Shown: positions 1 through 17,135 of the stretch, in pieces
Layout of the letters: each line of letters begins with the position of its first letter
How positions within the stretch are numbered: the stretch's first letter is position 1
From: a virus
Reading direction: 5' to 3' (one strand)
Length of the DNA stretch: 23,892 nt
IMG/VR virus record: IMGVR_UViG_3300023179_005514
Span: 1 to 23,892 of that record
Notes under the pieces: model-generated
The model's database searches: none
The model's input: the letters and a program-made list of their open reading frames with translations, nothing else
What the model was told of the DNA's origin: nothing
Translations under genes and position numbers: made by a program

Positions 1-156
1 TTCTACCTTGCGGATATTGTATGGGGGATAGTTAGGAATATTTTTGGTCAAATCATCGTGTAGCTTAGCCATACGATTCCAATTATCATCAAACCCCACA
101 TAGAACTTATCCAAGTCCTTAAACATATCCAAAACGTTACGTGGTACTAGAGTCAT
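1..156 (-). CDS. hsp20: Small heat-shock protein Hsp20/IbpA family, N-terminal part (runs off left edge)
   Basis: Only the first 52 codons are present; the frame is open to base 1. The peptide starts MTLVPRNVLDMF, continues with LDKFYVGFDDNW, and ends in a PNYPPYNI segment. This is the typical N-terminal arm of IbpA/Hsp20 proteins (a GFD..F phenylalanine-rich stretch, then YPPYNI at the entry to the alpha-crystallin domain, which lies outside the window). Members of the family are ATP-independent holdases that bind unfolding proteins; hsp20 is common in T4-like cyanophages and relatives. The ATG at 154-156 follows an AGGAG ribosome site (minus strand, about 163-168). A late promoter and a structured leader precede it. 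The family call is good; the gene is incomplete, so nothing can be said about its C-terminus. Confidence 0.85.
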   Translation of the reverse strand, partial: MTLVPRNVLDMFKDLDKFYVGFDDNWNRMAKLHDDLTKNIPNYPPYNIRKVE

Positions 157-269
157 TTTAGTTCTCCTATTAAGCGAGTTAAATTAAAAACCAACCCAAA
201 TGGCGTTGGCACCAGTGAATATTTTACTAGCCTTCACTGGCATGCTAGTTCCCATCCCGGGGATATAAT
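157..269 (-). promoter_or_regulatory. Structured hsp20 leader with predicted H-type pseudoknot
   Basis: Read as minus-strand RNA, four segments interleave. ACUAGC (249-244) can pair with GCUAGU (231-226), and CCAGUGAA (240-233) can pair with UUCACUGG (219-212). Both stems are perfect (6 and 8 bp). The order S1a-S2a-S1b-S2b, with loops of 3, 1 and 6 nt (the last AAAAUA), is that of an H-type pseudoknot. A 5-bp hairpin (CCAAC/GUUGG, 209-205 with 195-191) follows, and a small AUCCC/GGGAU hairpin (254-264) precedes. The ribosome site lies further down at about 163-168. Pairing is read directly from the sequence; folding, and any role as riboswitch, thermometer or stability element, is inference. 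Confidence 0.55.
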
Positions 270-277
270 TATTTATA
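270..277 (-). promoter_or_regulatory. T4-type late promoter upstream of hsp20
   Basis: The minus strand reads TATAAATA, an exact match to the T4 late promoter -10 element recognised by gp55-type sigma with the gp33/gp45 co-activators. It lies in a true intergenic gap, just after the kinase/nucleotidyltransferase gene ends, and would give a leader of roughly 105 nt before the hsp20 ATG. The match and location are seen; use as a promoter is inferred from T4. Confidence 0.65.
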
Positions 278-3129: not shown

Positions 3130-3744
3130 TTACTCAGACTTCACGAACTTCTTTTGTAAATGATTCAATAAGATACCATATGCTGGTAAAATAACAAGTA
3201 AACTAACTAGAATCTTACTAATACTATTATTAGTTGCTACAATATGCCAATTATTGGCCATAAACTCATCAGCACCACCTGCAAAAGCAGTACCAAAGAA
3301 TACATAAGTATCAATAAATGTACTTGCTATTGCGCTTAGTGTAGGCGCAATCCACCATGAGCTATATTTCTCTCTAAAGTATTGGAATACATAAACATCA
3401 AGCAGGTTACTTATAAAATAAGCCATACCTGAACCTAACCCAATACGAAACGCTACAGAATCAGGAGCACCACCTAGTTTTACTATTGCCATACTTACTA
3501 CAATAGCAGGAATAAAAGCAAGTGAAATTACTGCTCGTCCTGTTTGTTTGCCCAACAATCTTACAGTAAGATCGGTAAGCACAACAACTAATGGGAAAGT
3601 AAATGCAGCCCAAGCCAATGGAGCACCAAATATTGTAAATTTAAATTGAACAATATAATTGCTTACAGCAATAATAATGATATGTGCCAACATTAGTTTG
3701 TAGGCAACTGCCTTATCTACACCGTCTAAAAGTTTATTTAGCAT
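3130..3744 (-). CDS. yhhQ: YhhQ/VUT-family queuosine-precursor (7-deazaguanine) transporter
   Basis: This 204-aa protein is very hydrophobic, with about six membrane segments (roughly residues 15-33, 41-60, 71-90, 98-120, 131-156 and 175-195). The loop VVVLTDLTVRLLGKQTGR (53-70) is typical of the VUT/YhhQ family (TD-L-x-x-x-x-GK-x-x-R). E. coli YhhQ imports preQ0/preQ1 for queuosine synthesis, and homologues in some phages accompany 7-deazaguanine DNA modification. A strong AAAGGAGG site lies just upstream of the ATG at 3742-3744. It sits between the sugar C-methyltransferase gene and gp44. No queC, queD, queE, folE or dpdA-like gene is in the window, so its phage role cannot be settled here. 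The family call is firm; the precise substrate is inferred. Confidence 0.85.
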   Translation of the reverse strand: MLNKLLDGVDKAVAYKLMLAHIIIIAVSNYIVQFKFTIFGAPLAWAAFTFPLVVVLTDLTVRLLGKQTGRAVISLAFIPAIVVSMAIVKLGGAPDSVAFRIGLGSGMAYFISNLLDVYVFQYFREKYSSWWIAPTLSAIASTFIDTYVFFGTAFAGGADEFMANNWHIVATNNSISKILVSLLVILPAYGILLNHLQKKFVKSE

Positions 3745-5809: not shown

Positions 5810-6092
5810 CTTTATCCTCACTTAGTTTTGTTTCAAGATCATGTACATACAACATTATTAAAGCATAGTGTAACACCTTTAGTATATCCTTCCTATTCTT
5901 TCCCTCTTTTTTCCCATATCTTTGGGCATACTTAATTATATTACCAACAGTATGACCAATACCATGACCATTGTCAATAATAAATTCTGTAGTCTGAATC
6001 TTCCCTTGCGCATAATGTTGGCTATAGGTTGCGTCTACATAATTTTTAAGTTGTTCAATTAATTCATCTTCATTGTATTTGTATTTTATCAT
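5799..6092 (-). CDS. DUF3310-like small protein
   Basis: The 97-aa protein contains QHYAQGKIQTTEFI (25-38), GNIIKYAQRYGKK (50-62) and a KVLHYALIMLY helix. These follow the DUF3310 pattern (HY..GKIQ..EFI ... GN.IKY..RY ... D..KA.HYL). DUF3310 proteins are common in phages and have been called nucleotide-kinase-like, but no activity is established. Its first 23 bases overlap the end of the preceding candidate glycosyltransferase gene and its end overlaps gp45, so it is the first gene of the replication block. Confidence 0.7.
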   Translation of the reverse strand: MIKYKYNEDELIEQLKNYVDATYSQHYAQGKIQTTEFIIDNGHGIGHTVGNIIKYAQRYGKKEGKNRKDILKVLHYALIMLYVHDLETKLSEDKDAI

Positions 6093-6861
6093 AATATTTT
6101 CTCAAATAAGGTTCAGAATATAATCCAGGATTAGGGGAACATAATTTTTCTGGCGGGGCATCTATAACAAATATTCTTGTTGCTTTATGACCTACCCAAA
6201 ACTCGTCCACTAATCTATCGACAAAATATGGTTGCTTAACAGACTGCCACCAACTTGAATTAGAAACATCATCTAATGTTCTAATATAATCACTTCTAGC
6301 CCACCAAAAGTTACCACTAAAGTGGGGGAAAGGATGACTATTATAATTACAACCTGCTAACTCATGCCCTTCCTTGAGTGCATTGACGCATATCGACCAA
6401 TTCTCAAGACATCCCCATTCCAAATATTTTCTCCAATAGAAATAATTTTTAAATGTATTAATATCCCCGTTTTTAAAATGTCTTAAAAATGATGATGCAC
6501 CTTTAGAATGAAAATATAAAGCTAAAAAATCTTCTTCTTTTGAATCATCCCAAATTCTTTTTATAGTGGGTGTTTCATAGATAAATTTTTTCTCTAACGT
6601 ATCATCCCTTTTAGCAAAGTCATTAGAAATATCTGTACTTGTAGAACTATTTAGAATGGGATAAACTGTTATCTTTTGGTAGGTATGAGATAGTTTATCT
6701 AATAAATCAATTTGTGTCTGATCCCCAAGAGCAGTAACCTTTACTTCATCCACAGCATCCAATAAGCCATAATCTTCTATCTGTTTAAGTTGATCTATAT
6801 AGATTGAAACCCAATTAGAATCTTCAGTTAAAAATTGATGATTATAAAGTACTATTCTCAC
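6070..6861 (-). CDS. Candidate glycosyltransferase-related protein with YFHSKG and HFSGNFWWA motifs
   Basis: This 263-aa protein has an N-terminal beta-strand start (MRIVLYNHQF), a YFHSKG motif (116-121) followed by a W/Y-rich segment, and HFSGNFWWARSDY (180-192). These motifs recur in uncharacterised proteins of polysaccharide loci that are probably glycosyltransferases, but I cannot name a CAZy family. The start is GTG at 6859-6861, overlapping the TGA of the gene before it (GTGA). It is the last gene of the glycosylation cluster and overlaps the DUF3310-like gene by 23 bases. Confidence 0.6.
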   Translation of the reverse strand: MRIVLYNHQFLTEDSNWVSIYIDQLKQIEDYGLLDAVDEVKVTALGDQTQIDLLDKLSHTYQKITVYPILNSSTSTDISNDFAKRDDTLEKKFIYETPTIKRIWDDSKEEDFLALYFHSKGASSFLRHFKNGDINTFKNYFYWRKYLEWGCLENWSICVNALKEGHELAGCNYNSHPFPHFSGNFWWARSDYIRTLDDVSNSSWWQSVKQPYFVDRLVDEFWVGHKATRIFVIDAPPEKLCSPNPGLYSEPYLRKYYDKIQIQ

Positions 6862-7586
6862 TTTCTATTCTCATAAAAATTTTTATAGTTATGCACCATG
6901 TCATAATCATTACGCATACTATTTAAATCTATACTTGGATTTTCGGGAAAGATGTTGTATAATCTCGGATTTACGCTATATTCTTTTCCTGCTAGATAAT
7001 AATAGATATGAAGAAAACAATCGTTCCAACCTAATTGGGGCTGGTTCTGATGAAATCTCTCAAAATTCTTATCATAGAATTCTATAACATCCCAGAAATA
7101 TTCTATAAATGTGCTTGTTTTAAATATTGCGCCTGCGCCTGCACCATAACAATCTCTGTTAGGTTTAACTCCTGAATGTTCCTCACACGCATCTAATAAT
7201 TCTTTAGTAAAATAATTTCCTCCGAAAATATCATATGCGGCAAGTTCCCAGGATTCATCAAATTGTATTTCGTTTAAACAAATAACATCATCTTCACTAA
7301 TAACAAAATGTGTAGTGTTCATTGAAACGCACGCTAAATACATACGCTTTAAAAAATGTGCTACTTTAAATTTATCATGACCCCAGTGAGGAGAAGGATA
7401 ACCTATTCTATATTGGCTATGTAGATATTCTACATTATATCTTTTACATAAATCATAAAAATCTGCGCCACCATCGCATGCTAAAAAATATGGAACATCT
7501 GGATTATGTTCTCTGAATGATGCAACAGAAGCTTCAACGGCAGACATATTATCATATGTCCAATGATAAATTCCAATTGATTTCAT
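6858..7586 (-). CDS. GT-A-type glycosyltransferase (putative)
   Basis: The 242-aa protein starts with a strand-loop MKSIGIYHWTYDN, has a VPYFLACDGG segment (31-40) like the first strands of a nucleotide-sugar-binding fold, and carries FVISEDDV (94-101), which fits the metal-binding DxD position of GT-A enzymes. Further on it has a glycine-rich GAGAGAIFKTS stretch and a WNDCFLHIYYYLAG helix, resembling the acceptor side of such enzymes. Coupled by ATGA to the methyltransferase gene before it and by GTGA to the gene after it. Donor and acceptor are unknown. Confidence 0.65.
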   Translation of the reverse strand: MKSIGIYHWTYDNMSAVEASVASFREHNPDVPYFLACDGGADFYDLCKRYNVEYLHSQYRIGYPSPHWGHDKFKVAHFLKRMYLACVSMNTTHFVISEDDVICLNEIQFDESWELAAYDIFGGNYFTKELLDACEEHSGVKPNRDCYGAGAGAIFKTSTFIEYFWDVIEFYDKNFERFHQNQPQLGWNDCFLHIYYYLAGKEYSVNPRLYNIFPENPSIDLNSMRNDYDMVHNYKNFYENRK

Positions 7587-8206
7587 ATTTTATTAAAAAA
7601 TGCTGTTAGAATATTAGGTTCATTATTAGAAGATTTTCTAATAGTATCTTCTAAATTACAATAATTAACTAAATTATATCCATAATAATTCATAAATTTA
7701 GTTAAAGATTTTTCATTAAAATGAAACAGGTGCTCATCTTCTCTGCGATGTTTCCAATTTTCAAACCAATCCTCGTTTGGATAATGGCACCAAGGAACTG
7801 ATACACAAATAAAGCTTGACTTAAGATCACCTACAAAATCTATATTATCATAATGTTCTAATGAATCAAAAAAGGTTATTACATCATAATGATTAGAAGT
7901 AATATCTTCCACAAAGGAACAACCATCAGGTATTTCATACCCACTAATATCATGTCCGAAACATTCTTGAATAATATTACTACAAGTTTTTAAGAATGAC
8001 CCATTACCGTATCCAACATCAAGTATTGACATTGGAACACAACCAATACATCCTAAAATATATCCCAATCGTAAATGACTCATATAATTAGTTAGTTCAC
8101 CATAACAATTATATCTAGTATTTATATAGTTTTTATCGTATATGTATTTACTTTTCTCTATTTGATATACTACATCAAATTCATTTTTAGCATAATTATT
8201 AAGCAT
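7583..8206 (-). CDS. Class I SAM methyltransferase, paralogue A
   Basis: The 207-aa protein has SAM motif I ILDVGYGNGSF (61-71), post-motif FGHDISGYEIP (83-93), acidic motif ITFFDSLEH (110-118) and a C-terminal WKHRREDEHLFHF (151-163). The same architecture appears in the methyltransferase at 8912-9541, with matching DFGYGNGDF, FTFFDSIEH and HRKPNEHFHHF. Such short Methyltransf_23-like enzymes are common in surface polysaccharide loci, where they O- or N-methylate sugars. The start ATG follows the previous stop closely (TAA-T-ATG) without a clear ribosome site. A possible internal late promoter lies 37 bases upstream. Target unknown. Confidence 0.78.
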   Translation of the reverse strand: MLNNYAKNEFDVVYQIEKSKYIYDKNYINTRYNCYGELTNYMSHLRLGYILGCIGCVPMSILDVGYGNGSFLKTCSNIIQECFGHDISGYEIPDGCSFVEDITSNHYDVITFFDSLEHYDNIDFVGDLKSSFICVSVPWCHYPNEDWFENWKHRREDEHLFHFNEKSLTKFMNYYGYNLVNYCNLEDTIRKSSNNEPNILTAFFNKI

Positions 8207-8207
8207 A

Positions 8208-8915
8208 TTAGAAAGGATTTACCCATTGTTTTTCAAAAAACATATTTATAGTACCTTTACCTTGCATAACATGAAAAGGTACCGTATGTAAACGAGCGAA
8301 AGTACTATAGTAATAATATAATTTTCTTTTATCATTATTCAATACAGATGCTAATAAGGAAGTACCAGTTTCCCCTCCGATAAAATATTCACAAGTGGCG
8401 ATATGATTTATATTATCAATATATCCAGTGCTAAATACAAATCCTTTTAAATCTATACTAATAGGATCTTTGATGCAAATTACTTTCTCATACTTATGAT
8501 ATTTGCTATCAGCAAATTTGTCAATTAAATCTTGAAGTAATTCTACCGGCCAATTTCTATAATTATTATATGGGCCATCAAATAAAGGAAATATACATAT
8601 CTTCTTTTCCATTGGTTGGGGATTTGGAAGAACTAATATATCACCGGCCAATGCTCTATAATCCCACACGTTTAAATTTTCGTATTCTAAATTAATATCG
8701 CCTTGTTCCGATGTCATAAAATCAGTATTACTAATTAACCAGTTTCTAAATTTTATTCCAACATCACCGTCAAGAATAGCATTATCGGGCAAATGTGCTT
8801 TTATTTCCTGGTTATTATTCACATTTCTCAAATGTTGAATTAGATTTAGCACACCTAAAATATCACCATTTCTAATTCTGCCCCCGAAATTTCTATCTGT
8901 AATATTAACTATCAT
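8208..8915 (-). CDS. GT-B/heptosyltransferase-like protein (putative)
   Basis: This 235-aa protein has a second-half pattern close to GT9/heptosyltransferases: a strand CIFPLFDG (107-114), then YRNWPVELLQDLIDKF (119-134), where heptosyltransferases have a K-W-P..fa.L...L segment. Near the end it has CEYFIGGETGTSLLASVL (175-192), which resembles the nucleotide-binding D....GG.TG..H.A loop. The N-terminal half is less typical. Coupled by ATGA to the methyltransferase before it. The fold assignment is moderately supported; substrate unknown. Confidence 0.55.
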   Translation of the reverse strand: MIVNITDRNFGGRIRNGDILGVLNLIQHLRNVNNNQEIKAHLPDNAILDGDVGIKFRNWLISNTDFMTSEQGDINLEYENLNVWDYRALAGDILVLPNPQPMEKKICIFPLFDGPYNNYRNWPVELLQDLIDKFADSKYHKYEKVICIKDPISIDLKGFVFSTGYIDNINHIATCEYFIGGETGTSLLASVLNNDKRKLYYYYSTFARLHTVPFHVMQGKGTINMFFEKQWVNPF

Positions 8916-9541
8916 AATTTTTTCGCAATAACTGTTAAAATATTTGTAAGAGAATCTACTGGTTTTCTTATCTCATCCTCGTCGTTACCAACATATAAAA
9001 CATCACATCCTGCATCCTCAAGTAATTTAGTTAATCCATGGATATCAAAGTGATGAAAATGCTCATTAGGCTTTCTATGCTTCCAAGTTTTAAACCATTC
9101 AGCACCCATTTCTTCATGCATATGAGGCAAGGATATACAAAAATATTTTGTATGAATACCTAATAAAAAACTAACTAAATCTGAATTGTGAATATGTTCT
9201 ATAGAATCAAAAAATGTAAATAAATCTACTGATACATCATCTATTGAATTAACAAATTGAACTCCTGGAGGTGTTGGATATTTTGAAATATCATACCCAA
9301 AACAACTATGGTTTTGTTCAGTACAATAAGATAAAAAATCACCATTCCCATAACCAAAATCACATACTGATGAAAAATTTCCTATAACAGATTTTATTCT
9401 ATTGTATCGTAATTTGGACATTGCGATACCTGGTATTCTATTATAATAACTTATGTAATCGTTATTATAGGATGGTCCTGGACCGGTTCTGAACATTTGA
9501 AAATAATGTCCGGGACGTAATTTAACGTAATTGTCAAGCAT
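8912..9541 (-). CDS. Class I SAM methyltransferase, paralogue B
   Basis: The 209-aa protein has SAM-binding motif I VCDFGYGNGDF (59-69), FGYDISKYPTPPG (81-93), FTFFDSIEH (108-116) and WKHRKPNEHFHHF (153-165), the same set as the protein at 7583-8206. The two are clearly paralogues separated by one gene. Overlap with the gene before it is 8 bases; ATGA links it to the gene after it. It probably methylates a sugar or glycan made by this cluster. The exact group methylated is unknown. Confidence 0.78.
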   Translation of the reverse strand: MLDNYVKLRPGHYFQMFRTGPGPSYNNDYISYYNRIPGIAMSKLRYNRIKSVIGNFSSVCDFGYGNGDFLSYCTEQNHSCFGYDISKYPTPPGVQFVNSIDDVSVDLFTFFDSIEHIHNSDLVSFLLGIHTKYFCISLPHMHEEMGAEWFKTWKHRKPNEHFHHFDIHGLTKLLEDAGCDVLYVGNDEDEIRKPVDSLTNILTVIAKKL

Positions 9542-10268
9542 AATTGAAAGTATATATATGTTCTATTCTAGTATTTCTATTGCTATAATAATGCTTATTA
9601 TATGTGTCCATAATAGAACTTCTATTATCCCATGTTATCATAGCATCATCATATAATACAATCTGTTCTTTTTTCATAAGGTTAGCTAAAACCGAAATAC
9701 CAGTGATTGCTGAAATAAAAGGATACTTAGATTTATTCATTAATGCTGCATTGTAAGCCATTGTTTGACTATAATCTAAATATCTAAATTTTACATCATT
9801 GTATTTTCCTGAATCTTTAATAATATTACAGTTTCTTCTCATATCAATATTAGTAGTCCAACGATCACCTATATAGACATAATCTGCTGCATCATTATCC
9901 AATTCTATTTTAGGTATTTCTAAAACAAAATCATCGTCAACTTCAAAAGAAACGTCATACGTATCATTTAAAAAATTTTCATATCTTGATGTTTCTATAG
10001 GTCGATGTTCTGAATTTTTAGTTGACCTTGTCCAACTTGTCAACTTAAAATATTCTACATCAATCGTTACTTCATCATCATATACCACATCCTCAAACAT
10101 GTATTGATATTTCAATAAGTCTATCATGCCATTGAATGTTCTGAGATTTCCCTGGACTGCTAAAAATATTTTACAATCATATGCTTTGGATAATCCAGAC
10201 AGCACAGGCAGAGAATTTAAAAAATCTCCCATCACACCGGTTCCTTGAATAGCATGTACTTTAAGCAT
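9534..10268 (-). CDS. Heptosyltransferase-like (GT9-type) protein (putative)
   Basis: The 244-aa protein opens with QGTGVMGDFLNSLPVLSGL (8-26), matching the GT9 N-terminal pattern in which a GD-x-x-x-x-LP-x-x-x-x-L loop binds the donor. It ends with YPFISAITGISVLANLM (182-198), where GT9 enzymes have a D....G..T...HLA segment. It is shorter than true heptosyltransferases (about 320-350 aa). Overlaps of 8 bases on both sides show a continuous operon. Fold call moderate; donor unknown. Confidence 0.55.
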   Translation of the reverse strand: MLKVHAIQGTGVMGDFLNSLPVLSGLSKAYDCKIFLAVQGNLRTFNGMIDLLKYQYMFEDVVYDDEVTIDVEYFKLTSWTRSTKNSEHRPIETSRYENFLNDTYDVSFEVDDDFVLEIPKIELDNDAADYVYIGDRWTTNIDMRRNCNIIKDSGKYNDVKFRYLDYSQTMAYNAALMNKSKYPFISAITGISVLANLMKKEQIVLYDDAMITWDNRSSIMDTYNKHYYSNRNTRIEHIYTFNYA

Positions 10269-11064
10269 GATTAAAATCCTTAAATATCACAAACCACCCA
10301 TCCTTGTTAGGGTCAATATAGTTTATACTAAATAAATGAGGAGCTGTTCTAAAAGACATAAGCAACATTGTTTGGTCATCATCTATCATACCTACACGAG
10401 TTAATACAGATAATGAATCCAACATAAGACCTCTTAGATGAGACCACCCTTCTCTATGAGATACAATATGGCATCCTTGTATGTATACATCCCCAGACAT
10501 AACGATATCAAATATTGGTCTATCATCTAATGGGCGAATATTAAATAAATTAATTTTATTATTGGTATCAAATTTCCATGTAGTACCAGGAACAAATCTG
10601 GTATCATCTCTCACATAACCAAAATCAATCCAAGCTAAAGTGTTCGCATCGTCTATGTTATTATTAATGACGTATTCTACAAATAAAGATTTATAAAAAT
10701 TAATTAGTACATACTTAGGAGACCAATATTCTGGCGATGCAGGGGAATCAATTAATTTTATAAAGTCCCTATTCCTCATAATCCTATGCAGCTCCTCCAT
10801 AAGATTATAATTTTCTGAAAAGATTTCATCATACTCTACTATGATAATATCATCGCGCATTTCCTTTATAATATCAGAAAATTTGCTTTCTGTAAACACA
10901 ATGATTTTATTATCTAGTTTAGTTAACGCCTTAAATCGTTCCAAATAAGTTTCGGTTGATCTTTGAATATAAGGAGCAATAGGAGTCCCGTTAGCATATC
11001 CTACCCAATCACCTCTACCTATATCAAAAAAGGCTGTTACGATAGTTACTGATTCCGCCGCCAT
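10261..11064 (-). CDS. HtrL/YibB (WlaTC) family protein, putative glycosyltransferase
   Basis: The 267-aa protein has the HtrL/YibB hallmarks: VTAFFDIGRGDW near the N-terminus (9-20), RSTETYLERFKAL (35-47), a KLIDSPASPEYWSPKY segment with the family's spey..pky pattern, and AWIDFGYVRD (144-153). The family is found in LPS and surface-glycan loci and is regarded as glycosyltransferase-like. I use the ATG at 11062-11064, preceded by AAAGG, rather than a TTG 27 bases upstream that lies inside the fucosyltransferase-like gene. With this start only one base separates it from that gene's TAA. Confidence 0.8.
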   Translation of the reverse strand: MAAESVTIVTAFFDIGRGDWVGYANGTPIAPYIQRSTETYLERFKALTKLDNKIIVFTESKFSDIIKEMRDDIIIVEYDEIFSENYNLMEELHRIMRNRDFIKLIDSPASPEYWSPKYVLINFYKSLFVEYVINNNIDDANTLAWIDFGYVRDDTRFVPGTTWKFDTNNKINLFNIRPLDDRPIFDIVMSGDVYIQGCHIVSHREGWSHLRGLMLDSLSVLTRVGMIDDDQTMLLMSFRTAPHLFSINYIDPNKDGWFVIFKDFNHA

Positions 11065-11065
11065 A

Positions 11066-11938
11066 TTAACCTTTATATACGTTGTTATCAAACCAAGTTA
11101 AAAATCTATCTACTTCCATATACTTATTTCGTTTATTATCAATAAGTGCAGGTTCATTGAAATACTTTTCATATAATTTTGAATTATTATCTACTTCAAT
11201 AATGGCTTCTATAAACTCTTCATCATTCTCATAATCATGCAAGGATAACATAGAAGCAGGATTAAAATCTAATCCAATAGTAGGACTGCCCCAGTAGATT
11301 GGTACAGCATTTGCCCAATATGAATGTAGAATTTTTTCTGTAACATAACCAGGATACCCTGATTGTTCAAAACACATAACAAATTTTTTATTTCTGAAAA
11401 AATCTATTTTCTGTTTTTGTGCATCGTCACCTCTCGGCAACACATATCCTATATTATTAAATAACGGACCTCCGCTATCAATTTTTTTATACTGGGATAA
11501 TTTATTATAAAAATCTACGCGTTTAGGAGTATTACCATTGCCATGAACAAAACCACAAAAATTTGTCTTTATAGCTAGGTCTCTTTTATTAAATACATCT
11601 AAAAAACTACCCATCCCTTTATTATGTTCCATGTGCCATTCTTCTACAGTGTATAATGGCAACCTATAATGAAATGGTTCTTCGTAATGGTCGAATGTAA
11701 TAGCATAATGACATACATAATCCCAGTACCTTCTGTTTTCACCTGTGTAGAAAATCTTTAATACTTTAGAAGGATCATACTGAGTATTTTTAGTTCCAAA
11801 TACCTCATCTCCAAAAATTAAATATTCCGGGTTTTCATCATCTCGAATGATTTCATATTTTTTGGACAAAACATTTGTAAAAAATAGATCAGCGCAACCA
11901 AAAAATGTATCTGCGAATCCTAATCTTAGTTTTTTCAT
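11066..11938 (-). CDS. GT10 alpha-1,3/4-fucosyltransferase-like enzyme
   Basis: The 290-aa protein has FYTGENRRYW (63-72), the acceptor-side motif of GT10 enzymes, and the GDP-fucose-binding signature KFVMCFEQSGYPGYVTEK (185-202) followed by ILHSYWANAVPIYWGSP (203-219). In characterised members the conserved E of FE and the Y-V-TEK segment contact the nucleotide-sugar. GT10 enzymes transfer L-fucose from GDP-fucose. The same cluster makes GDP-4-keto-6-deoxymannose and carries a GDP-fucose-synthase-type enzyme, so donor supply and transferase are encoded together. It could instead use a related deoxyhexose such as colitose, given the ColD-like gene. Linked by ATGA to the gene before it. Confidence 0.87.
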   Translation of the reverse strand: MKKLRLGFADTFFGCADLFFTNVLSKKYEIIRDDENPEYLIFGDEVFGTKNTQYDPSKVLKIFYTGENRRYWDYVCHYAITFDHYEEPFHYRLPLYTVEEWHMEHNKGMGSFLDVFNKRDLAIKTNFCGFVHGNGNTPKRVDFYNKLSQYKKIDSGGPLFNNIGYVLPRGDDAQKQKIDFFRNKKFVMCFEQSGYPGYVTEKILHSYWANAVPIYWGSPTIGLDFNPASMLSLHDYENDEEFIEAIIEVDNNSKLYEKYFNEPALIDNKRNKYMEVDRFLTWFDNNVYKG

Positions 11939-12759
11939 TTGCTAAATTTCTTTTCAATATGAGGTTTCAAATTAGGTATTCTATCATACTGGTGAACAAT
12001 AACAAATTCTTTTCCTGTAGATGTTGTTACATAATCTTGATGTAGAATAGGTTTGGGTTCTAATAAATTAGGTTCAAAGTATGCAATTTTATTTGGATCA
12101 GCTGTAGTACCAAGTTGTGCTGCCCAACCATCCTCAGATGTGCAGTATTTCGTAGTACTTTTCCAGGGTTCACAATTTAACATAACATTAAATGTTGCTT
12201 GATCTACAATAGGTATAGGTCTATTTATTGACATAATGAACAACATCATAGCCATATCTTTTACAGCCTGATATGTGCCAGCAAATGTCCCTACATTATA
12301 TATAGTTTCATTTTTATATTCTTCATAGATATATTCACCGAAGGTAGACTTAAGATTATCATCTCCCCAAGGTTCATCTTTATATTTTAACGACTCAGAC
12401 CCAACTATCAACTGTTTGTCGCCTATGTTTTCTTCTATCCATCGTATAGGATCATTTTGAAATACCACATCTTTCACATCCGTAGTAACTACATATCTAT
12501 ACTTATTTTGAGACAAGTAATGATAAATGTGAATAAATCTTTCTACATGAACAGGGATAGCAGATCTATAGCTATAACTTTCATCAACAGGAACAACAAT
12601 GATATTATTATCTTCTAATAATTTTACTGTTTTTTTATCGCACTCAAAAACGATAAGAACCTTATCGCCTTTAAATCCAGACCTATTTATTGAATTGACC
12701 CAGTATTTTAATTGATCCCATGTATATCGTGTACTACATCCTATAATTAAATCTTTCAT
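11935..12759 (-). CDS. GT-A-type glycosyltransferase (putative)
   Basis: This 274-aa protein has an N-terminal strand DLIIGCST, a HVERFIHIYHYL helix (71-82), a VVTTDVKDVVF segment (90-100) with a DxxD metal-binding-type motif followed by QNDP, and YNVGTFAG (154-161), where many GT-A enzymes have N-x-G acceptor loops. The build resembles enzymes that read a nucleotide-sugar with Mn2+. ATGA overlaps link it to both neighbours. I cannot assign a CAZy family or a sugar. Confidence 0.65.
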   Translation of the reverse strand: MKDLIIGCSTRYTWDQLKYWVNSINRSGFKGDKVLIVFECDKKTVKLLEDNNIIVVPVDESYSYRSAIPVHVERFIHIYHYLSQNKYRYVVTTDVKDVVFQNDPIRWIEENIGDKQLIVGSESLKYKDEPWGDDNLKSTFGEYIYEEYKNETIYNVGTFAGTYQAVKDMAMMLFIMSINRPIPIVDQATFNVMLNCEPWKSTTKYCTSEDGWAAQLGTTADPNKIAYFEPNLLEPKPILHQDYVTTSTGKEFVIVHQYDRIPNLKPHIEKKFSK

Positions 12760-13670
12760 AAATTATTCTCAATTTCCTTATTTAGATTTTCGTAACTATG
12801 ATCTAATACGATATTATATTTACAATTATATTTTATATTATGTGATAAAGATTCTGTTTGCCATTTAGTGAAGGAAATAAATGTTTTGTCTGGATTGTTA
12901 AAATTTTCCTTAGTCTCACAGAAAACAAAAGGTCCAGAATTTTTCCCTATAATTACATTACAAAATCTACTTAGATATGATATCTCATTTAGATCACAGT
13001 TATTTTGTTGTCTATCATGCCAAGGGGCATTAAAGTCATACAGATCGTTATCTTTTATAATATCATCTGTAAATAAAATATTACTTTCTGTTGTATTAAA
13101 TTTCTTAGTACATAACCAAGTAATATCATTATACTTATTAGCCAAAGGATTTAATAAATCACTCATGTCGCCCACAAAAGATTGATTAGACATAGGTATT
13201 CCATTACAAACCAATACTTTTTTATTTTTATTTGAGTTTACAAAATCATCTATGGATTTAACATTAAAAAAGGATTCGTCTAGTGTTGGTACATAGTATT
13301 CTTTATTAGATTCTAATGATACGGCTACATCAAAATAATCATTGATCTTATTATAAATATGTCGCCAACTCATCATTAATGAATCAAGATTTACCCCAAC
13401 ATATCCTTCAGTATCTCCCCACACACCTATCCATGTATTAACTAATAGTGTATTAAAAGATCTTTCTATAAATTTATCTCTATCATTTATATTAGAAGGT
13501 GTGCCAATTAAAGGTATATCCAAATCCTTATTTACTTTAGGATGATTAAAATGCAAATACTGAAATACAAAATCAGCGCCGGCTAATTGTTGCTTTAGAT
13601 GCCTAATAAATTCTTTATGTGTGAAAAGATCTCCTCGATGATAATGATTAAAAAATATAATTTTACGCAT
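12756..13670 (-). CDS. GT-B-like protein of the glycan cluster (putative)
   Basis: The 304-aa protein begins IIFFNHYHRGDLFTHKEF (4-21), recalling a heptosyltransferase/GT-B N-terminal loop (G-D-x-x). It ends with LSRFCNVIIGKNSGPFVF (233-250), like a donor-binding G-x-x-S/T-G segment preceding a helix. Between these is a strand KVLVCNGIPM (151-160). No known catalytic set is complete to my eye, so a glycosyltransferase role rests on fold hints and context. It overlaps its neighbours by 4 and 8 bases. Confidence 0.5.
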   Translation of the reverse strand: MRKIIFFNHYHRGDLFTHKEFIRHLKQQLAGADFVFQYLHFNHPKVNKDLDIPLIGTPSNINDRDKFIERSFNTLLVNTWIGVWGDTEGYVGVNLDSLMMSWRHIYNKINDYFDVAVSLESNKEYYVPTLDESFFNVKSIDDFVNSNKNKKVLVCNGIPMSNQSFVGDMSDLLNPLANKYNDITWLCTKKFNTTESNILFTDDIIKDNDLYDFNAPWHDRQQNNCDLNEISYLSRFCNVIIGKNSGPFVFCETKENFNNPDKTFISFTKWQTESLSHNIKYNCKYNIVLDHSYENLNKEIENNL

Positions 13671-14031
13671 TATCTACGCCTTTATATAATTTAACAGAAT
13701 CCTCTCTCAATGATTTACCCTGCAAAATAGCATTATCAATCATAGTATTGATTGCCATAACATATTTTGGTCTTTTCACTTTGAAACAAATATCAATTTT
13801 TCTTTTTAGATCAGCTATTTCTTTATCTGTCTTGGCAACTTGAATAGCATCTTCGAGCATCCATGTTCTGATATGAAGTATAGCTAATTTCTCAATAACT
13901 TCTCCTAATGAATCTGTTTCAACATATTCAATATCTGGAAAATTATGATCTTGTACAGAAACAGACCTAGATCGTTCTAATGTCTTATGAATTGTATCTT
14001 TTAAAATTTGTTCTATATCAATAGCAATCAT
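13663..14031 (-). CDS. DUF4254-like small protein in glycan cluster
   Basis: The 122-aa, mostly helical protein contains DSLGEVIEKLAILHIRTWMLED (residues 40-61) and a KRKIDICFKVKRPK stretch (76-89). This resembles short proteins, some annotated DUF4254, that accompany glycosyltransferases (pattern S..ELIDKLSI...K.WHLED). Their activity is unknown to me. The start overlaps the aminotransferase-fold gene (TAATG), and the end overlaps the next gene by 8 bases. The family link is tentative. Confidence 0.6.
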   Translation of the reverse strand: MIAIDIEQILKDTIHKTLERSRSVSVQDHNFPDIEYVETDSLGEVIEKLAILHIRTWMLEDAIQVAKTDKEIADLKRKIDICFKVKRPKYVMAINTMIDNAILQGKSLREDSVKLYKGVDNA

Positions 14032-15215
14032 TAGATGTCCTTAATAATATTTTCGAGAAATTCCATATCCTCACCATCTACAAAATGGTTGTTTCCAATG
14101 TATACACCATGGGTGTGAATAATCTGTGCGTTTGTCTCGGTCTTTTCTGTAATCATTTTATATTTCTTTAGAAAAGGTTGAGCTAATAAATTACCAGCAA
14201 CAACTGGTCTATATTCAATACCATTATCCTTAAAGATTGTCTTCATTTTAACAGTTGTATTTTTGTCCTTACAAATAAAAGGAAAACAAAAGCTACTATT
14301 ACCAGGATCATATGTATGAGGATAAAAAAGATTTGAGTTATTGTTTATAATTTTTACATACTTAACATAATTACTACGTCGTATCTTAATCATCTCATCT
14401 AAACGACTTAATTGTGCAATGCCCAATACCGCACAAATCTCATGATTTCTAAAATTATATCCATCAGTCTGAAATAAAAATTGGGGATCTATTTCAGGGG
14501 ACATTAGATGGTATCTTGTAGGATCTGATGATTCTCTTGCTAATCCATGGCTTCTTTTCATTTTCATTAAATCATACAACTCAAGATCATTGGTAGTTAC
14601 CATACCCCCTTCAATAGTGGACATATGGTGTCCGAAATAAAAACTAAAGGTTGCTCCTAATGAATTTGATCCTACCTTATTATCATTAGGATCTAGACAT
14701 CCATGTGATTCGCATACATCATCTATAATAAGAGCATTGGGCAAAATCTCTTTTAGTTTATCGTTTTGTGCAGGGAAACCTAATAAATGAGTAACAAAGA
14801 TCATTTTAATATCTTTATGTAATAAAGCAATCTTTTTAACTTCATCTAAATCAAAACTATAATTCTGCAAATTAATATCGCAGAAGATAGGAGTCAATCC
14901 TAATTGAATTATAGGGGCTACATTAGTCATCCAAGTACATGCTGGTAGCAAAACCTTATTGCCTGGGACTAGACCAAATTTTTCCATTACAGCAGCTACT
15001 AATAAAAAATTGGCAGTACTACCACTAGATACATACAAAGAACGTGCAAATGAATTGTTTGAATCTTTTAAAATCCAGTCATTCCATTCCGATTCAAATT
15101 GTTTTACCTTTATTCCATTAGTAAATCTATCAGCAGTAAGACAAAATGCTGCCATTTTTATTCTATCACTCCAGGTGATAGTTTCACCCATCAATGGCCA
15201 TCTTAATTTACTCAT
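14031..15215 (-). CDS. colD: ColD-like GDP-4-keto-6-deoxymannose 3-dehydratase (DegT fold, Lys replaced by His)
   Basis: The 394-aa protein has the DegT/DnrJ/StrS PLP fold: VSSGSTANFLL (62-72) for phosphate binding, IIDDVCESHG (163-172) with the Asp that contacts the PLP ring nitrogen, and SFYFGHHMSTIEGG (191-204). In sugar aminotransferases that last motif carries the Schiff-base Lys (pattern SF....K..T.GEGG). Here the Lys position is His196. The codons are CAC CAT, so this is not a reading error in translation. Lys-to-His at this place is the hallmark of ColD, which removes the C3 hydroxyl of GDP-4-keto-6-deoxymannose in colitose synthesis. Other ColD-like stretches are GIEYRPVVAGNLL (332-344) and THGVYIGNN (368-376). 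Length matches ColD (about 388 aa). No Fe-S cysteine set of E1-type dehydrases is obvious. ATGA links it to fcl. The dehydratase class is well supported; the exact substrate is inferred from gmd next door. Confidence 0.82.
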   Translation of the reverse strand: MSKLRWPLMGETITWSDRIKMAAFCLTADRFTNGIKVKQFESEWNDWILKDSNNSFARSLYVSSGSTANFLLVAAVMEKFGLVPGNKVLLPACTWMTNVAPIIQLGLTPIFCDINLQNYSFDLDEVKKIALLHKDIKMIFVTHLLGFPAQNDKLKEILPNALIIDDVCESHGCLDPNDNKVGSNSLGATFSFYFGHHMSTIEGGMVTTNDLELYDLMKMKRSHGLARESSDPTRYHLMSPEIDPQFLFQTDGYNFRNHEICAVLGIAQLSRLDEMIKIRRSNYVKYVKIINNNSNLFYPHTYDPGNSSFCFPFICKDKNTTVKMKTIFKDNGIEYRPVVAGNLLAQPFLKKYKMITEKTETNAQIIHTHGVYIGNNHFVDGEDMEFLENIIKDI

Positions 15216-16141
15216 GCTTTATTTTCCATAAACCATTTAACTGTTGATTTCAGCCCTTCATCAAATCCAATTTTAGGTTTCCATCCTAAATCAAATAATC
15301 TAGTGTTATCCATTTTGCGCCTAGGAGTACCATTGGGTAGAGTAGTATCCCAGAAGATTCTTCCTTCAAACCCTACTTCTCGTTTAATAATTTCAGATAA
15401 TTCTTTAATAGTAATTTCAGTATCTGATCCTACATTAATATGAGCAGAATCATCATAATTGTTCATTAAAAATACGCATGCATCTGCTAAATCGTCGCAA
15501 TGTAGAAATTCTCTAGTAGGCGAGCCATCACCCCAAGCAGTTATAGCATCATGCCCATTTACTTTCGCGCTATGGAATTTTCTAATAAGCCCTGGAATAA
15601 CATGGCATTCTAATGGATTAAAATTATCGTTAGGCCCATATAAATTTGCAGGCATCAAACTAATAGCATTAAAGTCAAATTGTGTCTTGTAATGTTGACA
15701 CATACGAAGACCAGCAATTTTAGCTAAAGCATATCCCTCATTGGTTGGCTCTAGTGGAGCAGTCATTAAGTATTCTTCTTTAATAGGCTGAGGTGTTACT
15801 TTAGGATAGATACAAGCAGACCCTAAAAATAATAATTTTTTGACTCCTGTTCTATAAGCGGTGTCTATGACATTAGTTTGAATCATTAGATTATCATATA
15901 TAAAATCACCTGGTACTTGGGCATTATAAGCAATACCCCCTACCTTAGCTGCAGCGAGAAAAACATATTCCGGTCTATTATACTTAAACCAATTATTAAC
16001 ATCATCTTGTTTACGCAAATCTAAACTGGTGTGCGGAACAGTAACAATATTATGATAACCATCAGATTGTAATTTTCTGACGATTGCTGAACCTACTAAT
16101 CCTTTATGCCCGGCGACAAAAATTTTACTATTCTTATCCAT
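15212..16141 (-). CDS. fcl: GDP-L-fucose synthase-type epimerase/reductase
   Basis: The 309-aa short-chain dehydrogenase has GHKGLVGSA (11-19) for NADP binding, GSACIYP (107-113), GYALAK (136-141) and a CHVIPG segment (179-184). Ser108, Tyr137 and Lys141 form the SDR triad. Cys110 and His180 match the acid/base pair of E. coli Fcl (Cys109, His179) used for C3/C5 epimerisation. It would turn GDP-4-keto-6-deoxymannose into GDP-L-fucose. ColC, which makes GDP-L-colitose from the ColD product, belongs to the same fold, so this enzyme could also act after the ColD-like protein. It overlaps gmd by 8 bases and colD by ATGA. Confidence 0.93.
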
Positions 16142-17135
16142 ATAAACACATATCCTGTACTAATGATTTAAAATTATATTTAGGTGCCCAGCCTAATTCT
16201 CGTCTTGCTTTTGAAGAATCTCCAAGTAATTGGTCAACCTCAGCTGGTCTAAAATATCTTTTATCTACTGCAACAACAACATTACCAGTTTTAATGTCTC
16301 GTCCAATCTCATTTAATCCCTCACCTTCCCATTGAATATTCATATTAAAATAAGGGGCACATGCTTCAGCAAACTCTCTCACCGAATACATTTCACCTGT
16401 AGATATAACATAATCATCTGGTTTATCTTGTTGTAGCATCAACCACATTGCCTCGACATAATCTTTAGCGTGACCCCAGTCACGCTTGGCATTTAGATTA
16501 CCTAACAATACAGGCGATTCAGTTTTACCAATATAGATATTTCTCAAACCTTGAACAATTTTTTGTGTAACAAAATTGTGCCCACGTCTTGGAGATTCAT
16601 GATTAAATAAAATACCAGAGCAAGCAAACATATTATATGCTTCTCTATAATTCTTCACAATCCAATACCCATATAGTTTAGCTACTCCATACGGAGATCT
16701 AGGATAAAATGGGGTTGTTTCTTTTTGAGGAACTTCCTGAACTAATCCGTATAATTCAGATGTTGATGCTTGATAAATTTTAGCATTTAAACCAAGCATT
16801 CTAGTACACTCTAGAATTTTTAAAGTCCCAACTCCATCAACCATAGCAGTATACTCAGGTGTTTCAAAAGAAACTTGCACATGACTTTGAGCCGCTAAAT
16901 TGTAAATCTCTTGAGGATTATTTTTCTCTAACACGTTCATCAGTGTGAAAGAATCGGTCACATCCCCATAATGTAATTTTAGATTCGGGTTGTTATAGAG
17001 ATGATCTATTCTTCCCGTATTGATTGATGAACTTCTTCGGATAATACCGTGTACTTTATATCCTTTAACTAAAAGGAGCTCTGCTAGATATGATCCATCT
17101 TGTCCTGTAATACCAGTAATTAGTGCTGTCTTCAT
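16134..17135 (-). CDS. gmd: GDP-mannose 4,6-dehydratase
   Basis: The 333-aa extended SDR enzyme has [12 protein letters not shown] (8-19), [15 protein letters not shown] (33-47), [11 protein letters not shown] (81-91), STSELYG (124-130), YGVAK (149-153) and SPRRG (181-185), the standard GMD set. The catalytic Ser/Thr-Glu and Tyr-Lys are present. It converts GDP-D-mannose to GDP-4-keto-6-deoxy-D-mannose with internal hydride transfer on NADP. Mannose nucleotide must come from the host; no manC/manB is in the window. It is the first gene after the late promoter, with an AGGTGAT ribosome site before the ATG at 17133-17135. Confidence 0.97.

Follow-up and report, generated by a model that had tools for sequence, protein, structure and literature searches.

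The leader of the hsp20 gene in this phage DNA holds two kinds of RNA structure. Upstream lies an H-type pseudoknot that is genuine and evolutionarily supported, and downstream of it lies an element that, judged by its letters and predicted fold, has the sequence and structural parts by which ROSE-like elements are defined, including a hairpin that buries the SD. On balance, we favor the view that translation of the late-expressed phage Hsp20 is controlled by a composite leader, in which a ROSE-type thermometer at the SD lies behind a 5′ hairpin and pseudoknot that may serve as cap and insulator.

The hsp20 leader and its surroundings

The window, as we call the whole stretch analyzed, comprises 23,892 nucleotides of the IMG/VR virus record IMGVR_UViG_3300023179_005514. 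Its clamp-loader sequence is nearest, among cultured phages, to those of Stenotrophomonas phage DLP6 and Methylophilales phage Melnitz (about 61%), and we therefore regard the window as T4-like phage DNA. The partial hsp20 open reading frame (ORF) at its edge matches PHROG 432 Hsp20 (E 5.9e-5), and a full-length homologue in the relative L002, whose first 52 residues are identical to those in the window, matches Pfam HSP20 (E 3.4e-18). Between the late promoter and the hsp20 start there are 108 nt of leader, arranged as follows in the direction of transcription.

270..277, minus strand: T4-type late promoter TATAAATA, exact octamer
250..264, minus strand: 5′-terminal hairpin AUCC-CCG-GGAU (264–254) plus GGGA (253–250), read from the sequence
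212..249, minus strand: H-type pseudoknot, S1 249–244/231–226 and S2 240–233/219–212, from shuffle test and covariation
191..209, minus strand: hairpin P1, the first ROSE-type hairpin, 209–205/195–191, bulged G204, 203–202/197–196, loop AUUU
164..178, minus strand: ROSE-type SD hairpin CUC(G)CU-UAAU-AGGAG, with the SD (168–164) buried; Rfam ROSE_3 match
1..156, minus strand: start of the hsp20 gene, ATG at 156–154, 52 codons and then the window end

The exact late promoter that a sequence-only reading had placed upstream of the leader structure is indeed present at 277–270, as one of six copies of the octamer in this AT-rich window against 7.3 expected, which is not rarer than chance. Among the 76 relatives' leaders that have both, 58 show TATAAATA, 5 nt and then AUCCC, and this spacing, together with the geometry of T4 late promoters, predicts a transcript start at about A264. 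The combination AUCCC..GGGAUGGG after a late promoter was found in 99 viral stretches, the readable ones of which lead hsp20 operons, and among contigs long enough to judge, this leader start occurs only before hsp20 operons. Compared with the stems that come after it, the palindrome-like start AUCCC..GGGAUGGGA (250–264 in the window) varies far less in sequence, which could mean that it is an operator at the DNA level or that a sequence-specific RNA contact is made where the transcript starts. Folding the plus strand of the leader region gave nothing compelling.

Further along the minus strand of the window, the gene at 302–1144 encodes a protein whose N-terminus is like a P-loop kinase and whose C-terminal part is like a cytidylyltransferase, and that at 3130–3744, in the T4-like phage replication region, encodes a YhhQ-like membrane protein of the Vut_1 family, a family of queuosine-precursor transporters. 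The minus-strand stretch 6070–17135, between the clamp and AAA/peptidase genes, appears from translations only to be a long run of sugar- or glycan-type genes, with ORFs resembling sugar-nucleotide epimerases/dehydratases, aminotransferases, methyltransferases and glycosyltransferases.

A ROSE-type element at the ribosome-binding site

In ROSE-like elements, U(U/C)GCU is imperfectly paired to the SD in the last hairpin, and versions with two hairpins have been reported (PMC3669281). After P1, the minus strand of the window runs through a U-rich linker into CUC(G)CU (178–173), UAAU (172–169), AGGAG (168–164) and the ATG. Here UCGCU (177–173, within CUCGCU) faces AGGAG, with pairs 178–164, 177–165, 176–166, 174–167 and 173–168 and with G175 unpaired; the leader belongs to a small heat-shock gene (PHROG 432/Pfam HSP20), and a stable, covarying hairpin, P1, stands 5′ of the sensing hairpin. 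The sequence-only reading had noticed P1 (209–191) as a downstream flanking hairpin, and it proves to be real and strongly covarying, while the SD hairpin (178–164) lies beyond the region then described (191–264).

A DNA similarity search of a 1.2-kb region against phage records gave no match, and relatives were therefore compared through the Hsp20 protein and short patterns; a protein scan of viral contigs (80 loci) and pattern scans together yielded about 200 distinct leaders. Across 21 diverse leaders, P1 and the SD hairpin are paired in 100% of 252 cells, with 40 two-sided cells, all of them in P1. P1 is found in 185 of 198 leaders, a set in which its first three outer pairs were a condition of selection; the fourth and fifth pairs, which were not, are paired in 185/185 and 184/185. 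The stem of the SD hairpin is invariant among leaders (CUCGCU or CUUGCU with AGGAG), and its loop is variable (AAA, UUCG, GAAA, UAAU, UAUUUA and longer).

The U-rich stretch behind P1 raises the question of whether the two form an intrinsic terminator, through which the leader would act by attenuation. A terminator-like site is called near P1 (window 214–201), and a run of at least four U follows within 8 nt of P1 in 108 of 185 relatives. However, a run of this kind is lacking in the remaining 77, the stem of P1 is short and interrupted by a bulge, no alternative pairing that could act as an antiterminator can be seen, and a hairpin with this bulge is part of the Rfam ROSE_3 thermometer model. 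We consider attenuation highly improbable.

At the Rfam gathering threshold the window gave no match. The best Rfam match of its leader is to ROSE_3 (24.7 bits, E 0.0023), and in eight related records the only non-tRNA matches at E ≤ 0.05 are likewise to ROSE_3, each at an hsp20-type leader; scores in relatives include 34.1 bits in Melnitz-1, the best, and 29.2 bits in MED4-213. Both the window and the eight records stay below the curated ROSE_3 (RF02523) cut-off of 43 bits, and because of this score the window element is not a member of Rfam ROSE_3 as curated. Scored with the same model, the thermometer of E. coli ibpA reaches 20.8 bits.

The two-hairpin ROSE-like thermometers of Pseudomonas ibpA (PMC3669281) and ROSE_3 share with the phage leader a small heat-shock gene, a stable first hairpin, which in ROSE_3 has the same single bulged position before CC as P1, and a second hairpin in which the SD is imperfectly paired to U(U/C)GCU. 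Unlike them, the phage leader has a T4-type late promoter, an extra 5′ hairpin and pseudoknot, and a score below the cut-off, and its thermoregulation is putative. E. coli ibpA, which also encodes a small heat-shock protein, has the letters CUCGCU and AGGAG identical to those of the phage, and when R1, a model built from the phage ROSE-type element, is run on the E. coli ibpAB stretch, its best match (E 0.0075) falls on the ibpB leader. However, E. coli ibpA and ibpB (ROSE_2, RF01832) have different upstream hairpins, the ibpA leader is longer than that of the phage, and the window leader gave no match to Rfam ROSE_2. We know of no pseudoknot in the E. coli ibpA leader.

When the P1 and SD part is folded at 25–45 °C, exactly two bulged hairpins are obtained, and the computed ΔG of the SD hairpin is −3.8, −2.5 and −1.6 kcal/mol at 25, 37 and 45 °C, respectively. 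Predicted SD accessibility in P1 plus the SD hairpin changes only shallowly, from 0.22 at 5 °C to 0.29 at 50 °C, and because the computed opening is so shallow, a response to temperature is inferred from the ROSE class and not from folding. Accessibility that barely moves would also suit an SD hairpin that merely fixes a constant, low level of translation with no sensing of temperature, and aquatic hosts may undergo only small temperature shifts. Nevertheless, in bacteria this motif has been proven to act as a thermometer although its predicted energies are about as modest there (PMC3669281), and very distant phages retain the anti-SD and its unpaired G even where the loop letters differ. A constant-level hairpin is rather unlikely in our estimation, and thermometer function remains our preferred reading of this part of the leader.

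As one of the scans used the motif itself, the 80 protein-fetched loci were checked separately. The SD hairpin stands ahead of hsp20 or its operon in 78 of the 78 judgeable loci (the contigs of the other two are too short to judge), in 46 directly before hsp20 and in 32 before an upstream gene of the same operon, and it occurs in 0 of 1280 random control windows from the same loci. Judged from sequence, nearly all the phages examined have the SD hairpin ahead of hsp20 or of the operon that contains it. A MAFFT alignment (A2) that shifts the SD in rows with longer loops was left out of the model. R1 finds one strong copy per phage genome, which adjoins the annotated start of Hsp20 in Bellamy, Syn33, P-SSM3, Melnitz, MED4-213, S-SKS1 and P-RSM6. 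The ROSE-type element is present before hsp20 in named cyanophages, in pelagiphages and in Melnitz. S-TIM5 has a diverged form only, and S-CAM1 gives a weak R1 match.

Secondary R1 matches inside phage genomes (E 0.02–0.05) look spurious; the two that were inspected lie away from any hsp20 and have no SD hairpin. An exact 18-mer searched in bacterial genomes gave a single match, in Methylophaga with no Hsp20 behind it, which we take as chance.

The operons differ in their makeup. Many open with an ORF of 70–76 amino acids that is phasin-like or of 48 amino acids that is rubredoxin-like, and where such an ORF comes first, the leader precedes it (L012, L022, L026, L041, L051, L066 and others); one 76-residue first ORF that was searched matched nothing in Pfam or PHROG. 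Four operons (L011, L051, L204 and L255) have two ROSE-type SD hairpins, the leader copy and a second one, lacking P1, directly before an internal hsp20. In L244 (4905–5200), L026, L068, L103, L124 and about 80 other hsp20 leaders, the promoter and the ROSE part are separated by a second structured module of larger size. The pairs of its two hairpins are kept in 18/18 and 26–27/27 sequences with many compensatory changes, and two loop contacts covary (CGU/ACG to UGU/ACA, and CUG/CAG to CCG/CGG and CGG/CCG). It has no convincing match in Rfam, and it is probably an undescribed RNA family.

The upstream pseudoknot

The four interleaved and perfectly complementary segments of the sequence-only reading are all present on the minus strand. 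S1a, ACTAGC (249–244), pairs perfectly with S1b, GCTAGT (231–226), over 6 bp, and S2a, CCAGTGAA (240–233), with S2b, TTCACTGG (219–212), over 8 bp; the loops are L1, ATG (243–241, 3 nt), L2, G (232, 1 nt), and L3, AAAATA (225–220, 6 nt). The reported stem and loop lengths thus hold for the window, but the innermost two A-U pairs of S2 are lost in most relatives and its conserved part is only 6 bp.

Chance was assessed with dinucleotide shuffles, using a stacking score that ignores loop penalties and serves for ranking only. For the 43-nt stretch, the top-scoring H-type pseudoknot has −27.4 kcal/mol (S1 about −10.7 and S2 about −16.7 kcal/mol) against a shuffle mean of −7.4; 0 of 2000 shuffles of that stretch attain its score, and 6 of 2000 do so when the shuffled sequence is the whole 108-nt leader. 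Standard nested folding recovers S2 and not S1, as is expected of such a method.

Because a MAFFT alignment (A1) does not bring the S2 arms of different subtypes into register, pairs were counted on the arms only, with the variable loops 2 and 3 omitted so that the arms line up. In 18 relatives of the same subtype, 88.9% of pseudoknot cells are paired against 80.1% in shuffles, two-sided changes occur in 8 of 14 pairs (two in S1 and six in S2) against 3.6, and there are 23 two-sided cells against 5.9, a count reached by 0 of 500 shuffles; sliding the partner by one base abolishes the signal. Two interleaved stems, each with compensatory changes in homologous leaders, are therefore what the comparison finds, and it was on such changes that the sequence-only reading had staked its pseudoknot. 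Variants include ACUAGC/GCUAGU, ACCAGC/GCUGGU and AAUAGC/GCUAUU for S1, and CCAGUG/CACUGG, CCGAGG/CCUCGG and GUGGGG/CCCCAC for S2; a few relatives (L007, L008 and L266) have one or two mismatches in S2.

Other lineages, for example L207, L257, L029 and L210, have unrelated stems of the same topology at the same place, although the arms in these four were picked by their pairing and are an illustration, not a test. The pseudoknot is absent from 38 short leaders and from every cultured phage examined, and hence we regard it as accessory. Comparison of the leaders depicts it as an optional upstream module whose stems change rapidly.

These patterns bear on the suggestion, made in the sequence-only reading, that the pseudoknot could be a riboswitch; as a small-molecule switch, it would govern access to the SD. 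Its geometry and A-rich third loop are like those of small pseudoknot riboswitches, and the loop letters AAGG and AAAAU recur within one subtype. Yet the suggested comparison with wcaG, preQ1 and SAM-II gave no match, nor did any other Rfam riboswitch, even at permissive thresholds; the pseudoknot and the SD hairpin show no sign of exchanging pairs; and since the relatives have unrelated stems and loops in the same topology, there is no conserved ligand core. We therefore judge a riboswitch to be very unlikely.

The further suggestion of a thermosensor fits the leader overall, with the SD hairpin as the likely sensor. It does not fit the pseudoknot, which is often absent and whose S1 and S2 are too stable to melt at growth temperatures.

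Proposed working and biological meaning

We propose that the marginally stable SD hairpin would keep hsp20 translation low at low temperature and would open as the temperature rises, by analogy with bacterial ibpA/hsp20 mRNAs. With less confidence, we suggest that the 5′-terminal hairpin and the pseudoknot may together act as a compact cap, stable to heat, under which the 5′ end of the late mRNA is protected. The same cap may also prevent pairing between upstream RNA and the thermometer, which would leave the weak SD hairpin free to fold and melt alone. Structured 5′ ends can slow 5′-end-dependent decay, as in ompA, and RNA tied up in a compact knot is not available to the A/U-rich thermometer for pairing; it is for these two reasons that we propose a cap or insulator. 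The predicted start at the first hairpin, the heat-stable stems and a ROSE part that never needs the module are in line with it, while the many relatives that have no pseudoknot speak against it. Of the functions suggested for the pseudoknot, our best guess is stabilization of the mRNA, which the sequence-only reading had also offered, or insulation; this is the weakest step of our account.

Its main rival is a protein-binding site. The pseudoknot and the AUCCC..GGGAUGGGA start would in this case be an operator at which Hsp20 or another phage protein represses translation, and misfolded protein would titrate Hsp20 away and free its synthesis. E. coli IbpA represses its own translation via the 5′ UTR, for which it needs R93 and an aromatic residue at position 34 (PMC10474464), and the equivalent of R93 is present in 179 of 179 phage Hsp20 proteins, with Y or F at position 34 in all. 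The leader of T4 gene 32 is a precedent, being that of a T4-type phage with an H-type pseudoknot upstream of the ribosome site, although gene and sequence are different there; gp32 coats the leader and blocks translation (PMC3014915). That this leader type was seen only before hsp20 operons would also suit an operator. On the other hand, R93 and Y34 are common in proteobacterial Hsp20 generally, and the letters of the pseudoknot stems and loops change fast and the module is missing from many hsp20 leaders, unlike a fixed protein-binding site. We consider such an operator possible but doubtful. Conservation of R93 and Y/F34 in the protein sequences nonetheless leaves open an IbpA-like feedback loop, whether or not the pseudoknot is its dock. 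For the leader as a whole, we retain the composite element with a thermometer at the SD.

Earlier work counted two phage thermometers and added one candidate (PMC11182007). Those of lambda cIII and SPbeta blyA (a fourU element; PMC10586365) and the sigma-70 candidate (PMC11182007) resemble the present leader in that they control translation and are temperature-responsive or predicted to be so; they belong to other classes and other genes, none being a ROSE element or serving a heat-shock gene. In the open-access literature searched, we found no report of ROSE elements in phages, an absence that is not proof, and nothing on the control of hsp20, which marine T4-like cyanophages have among their core genes (PMC3037559).

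Well over a hundred distinct leaders of phage hsp20 genes are predicted to mask the SD in the manner of ROSE, and the named isolates with such predicted masking infect Synechococcus, Prochlorococcus, Pelagibacter and Methylophilales. This suggests that many T4-like phages tune Hsp20 by RNA folding; if the masking is temperature-responsive, RNA folding would set chaperone output during infection across much of the phage group. The pseudoknot modules, supported by covariation, are a target for structural work. More speculatively, the hsp20 leaders of T4-like phages may be modular, with fast-evolving pseudoknots giving the ROSE thermometer a second input from a protein or metabolite, by which the phage would integrate temperature and protein-folding load. 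We hold this only as a tentative possibility, but if it is true, these leaders would provide the first ROSE element described in a virus and a new class of pseudoknot regulator.
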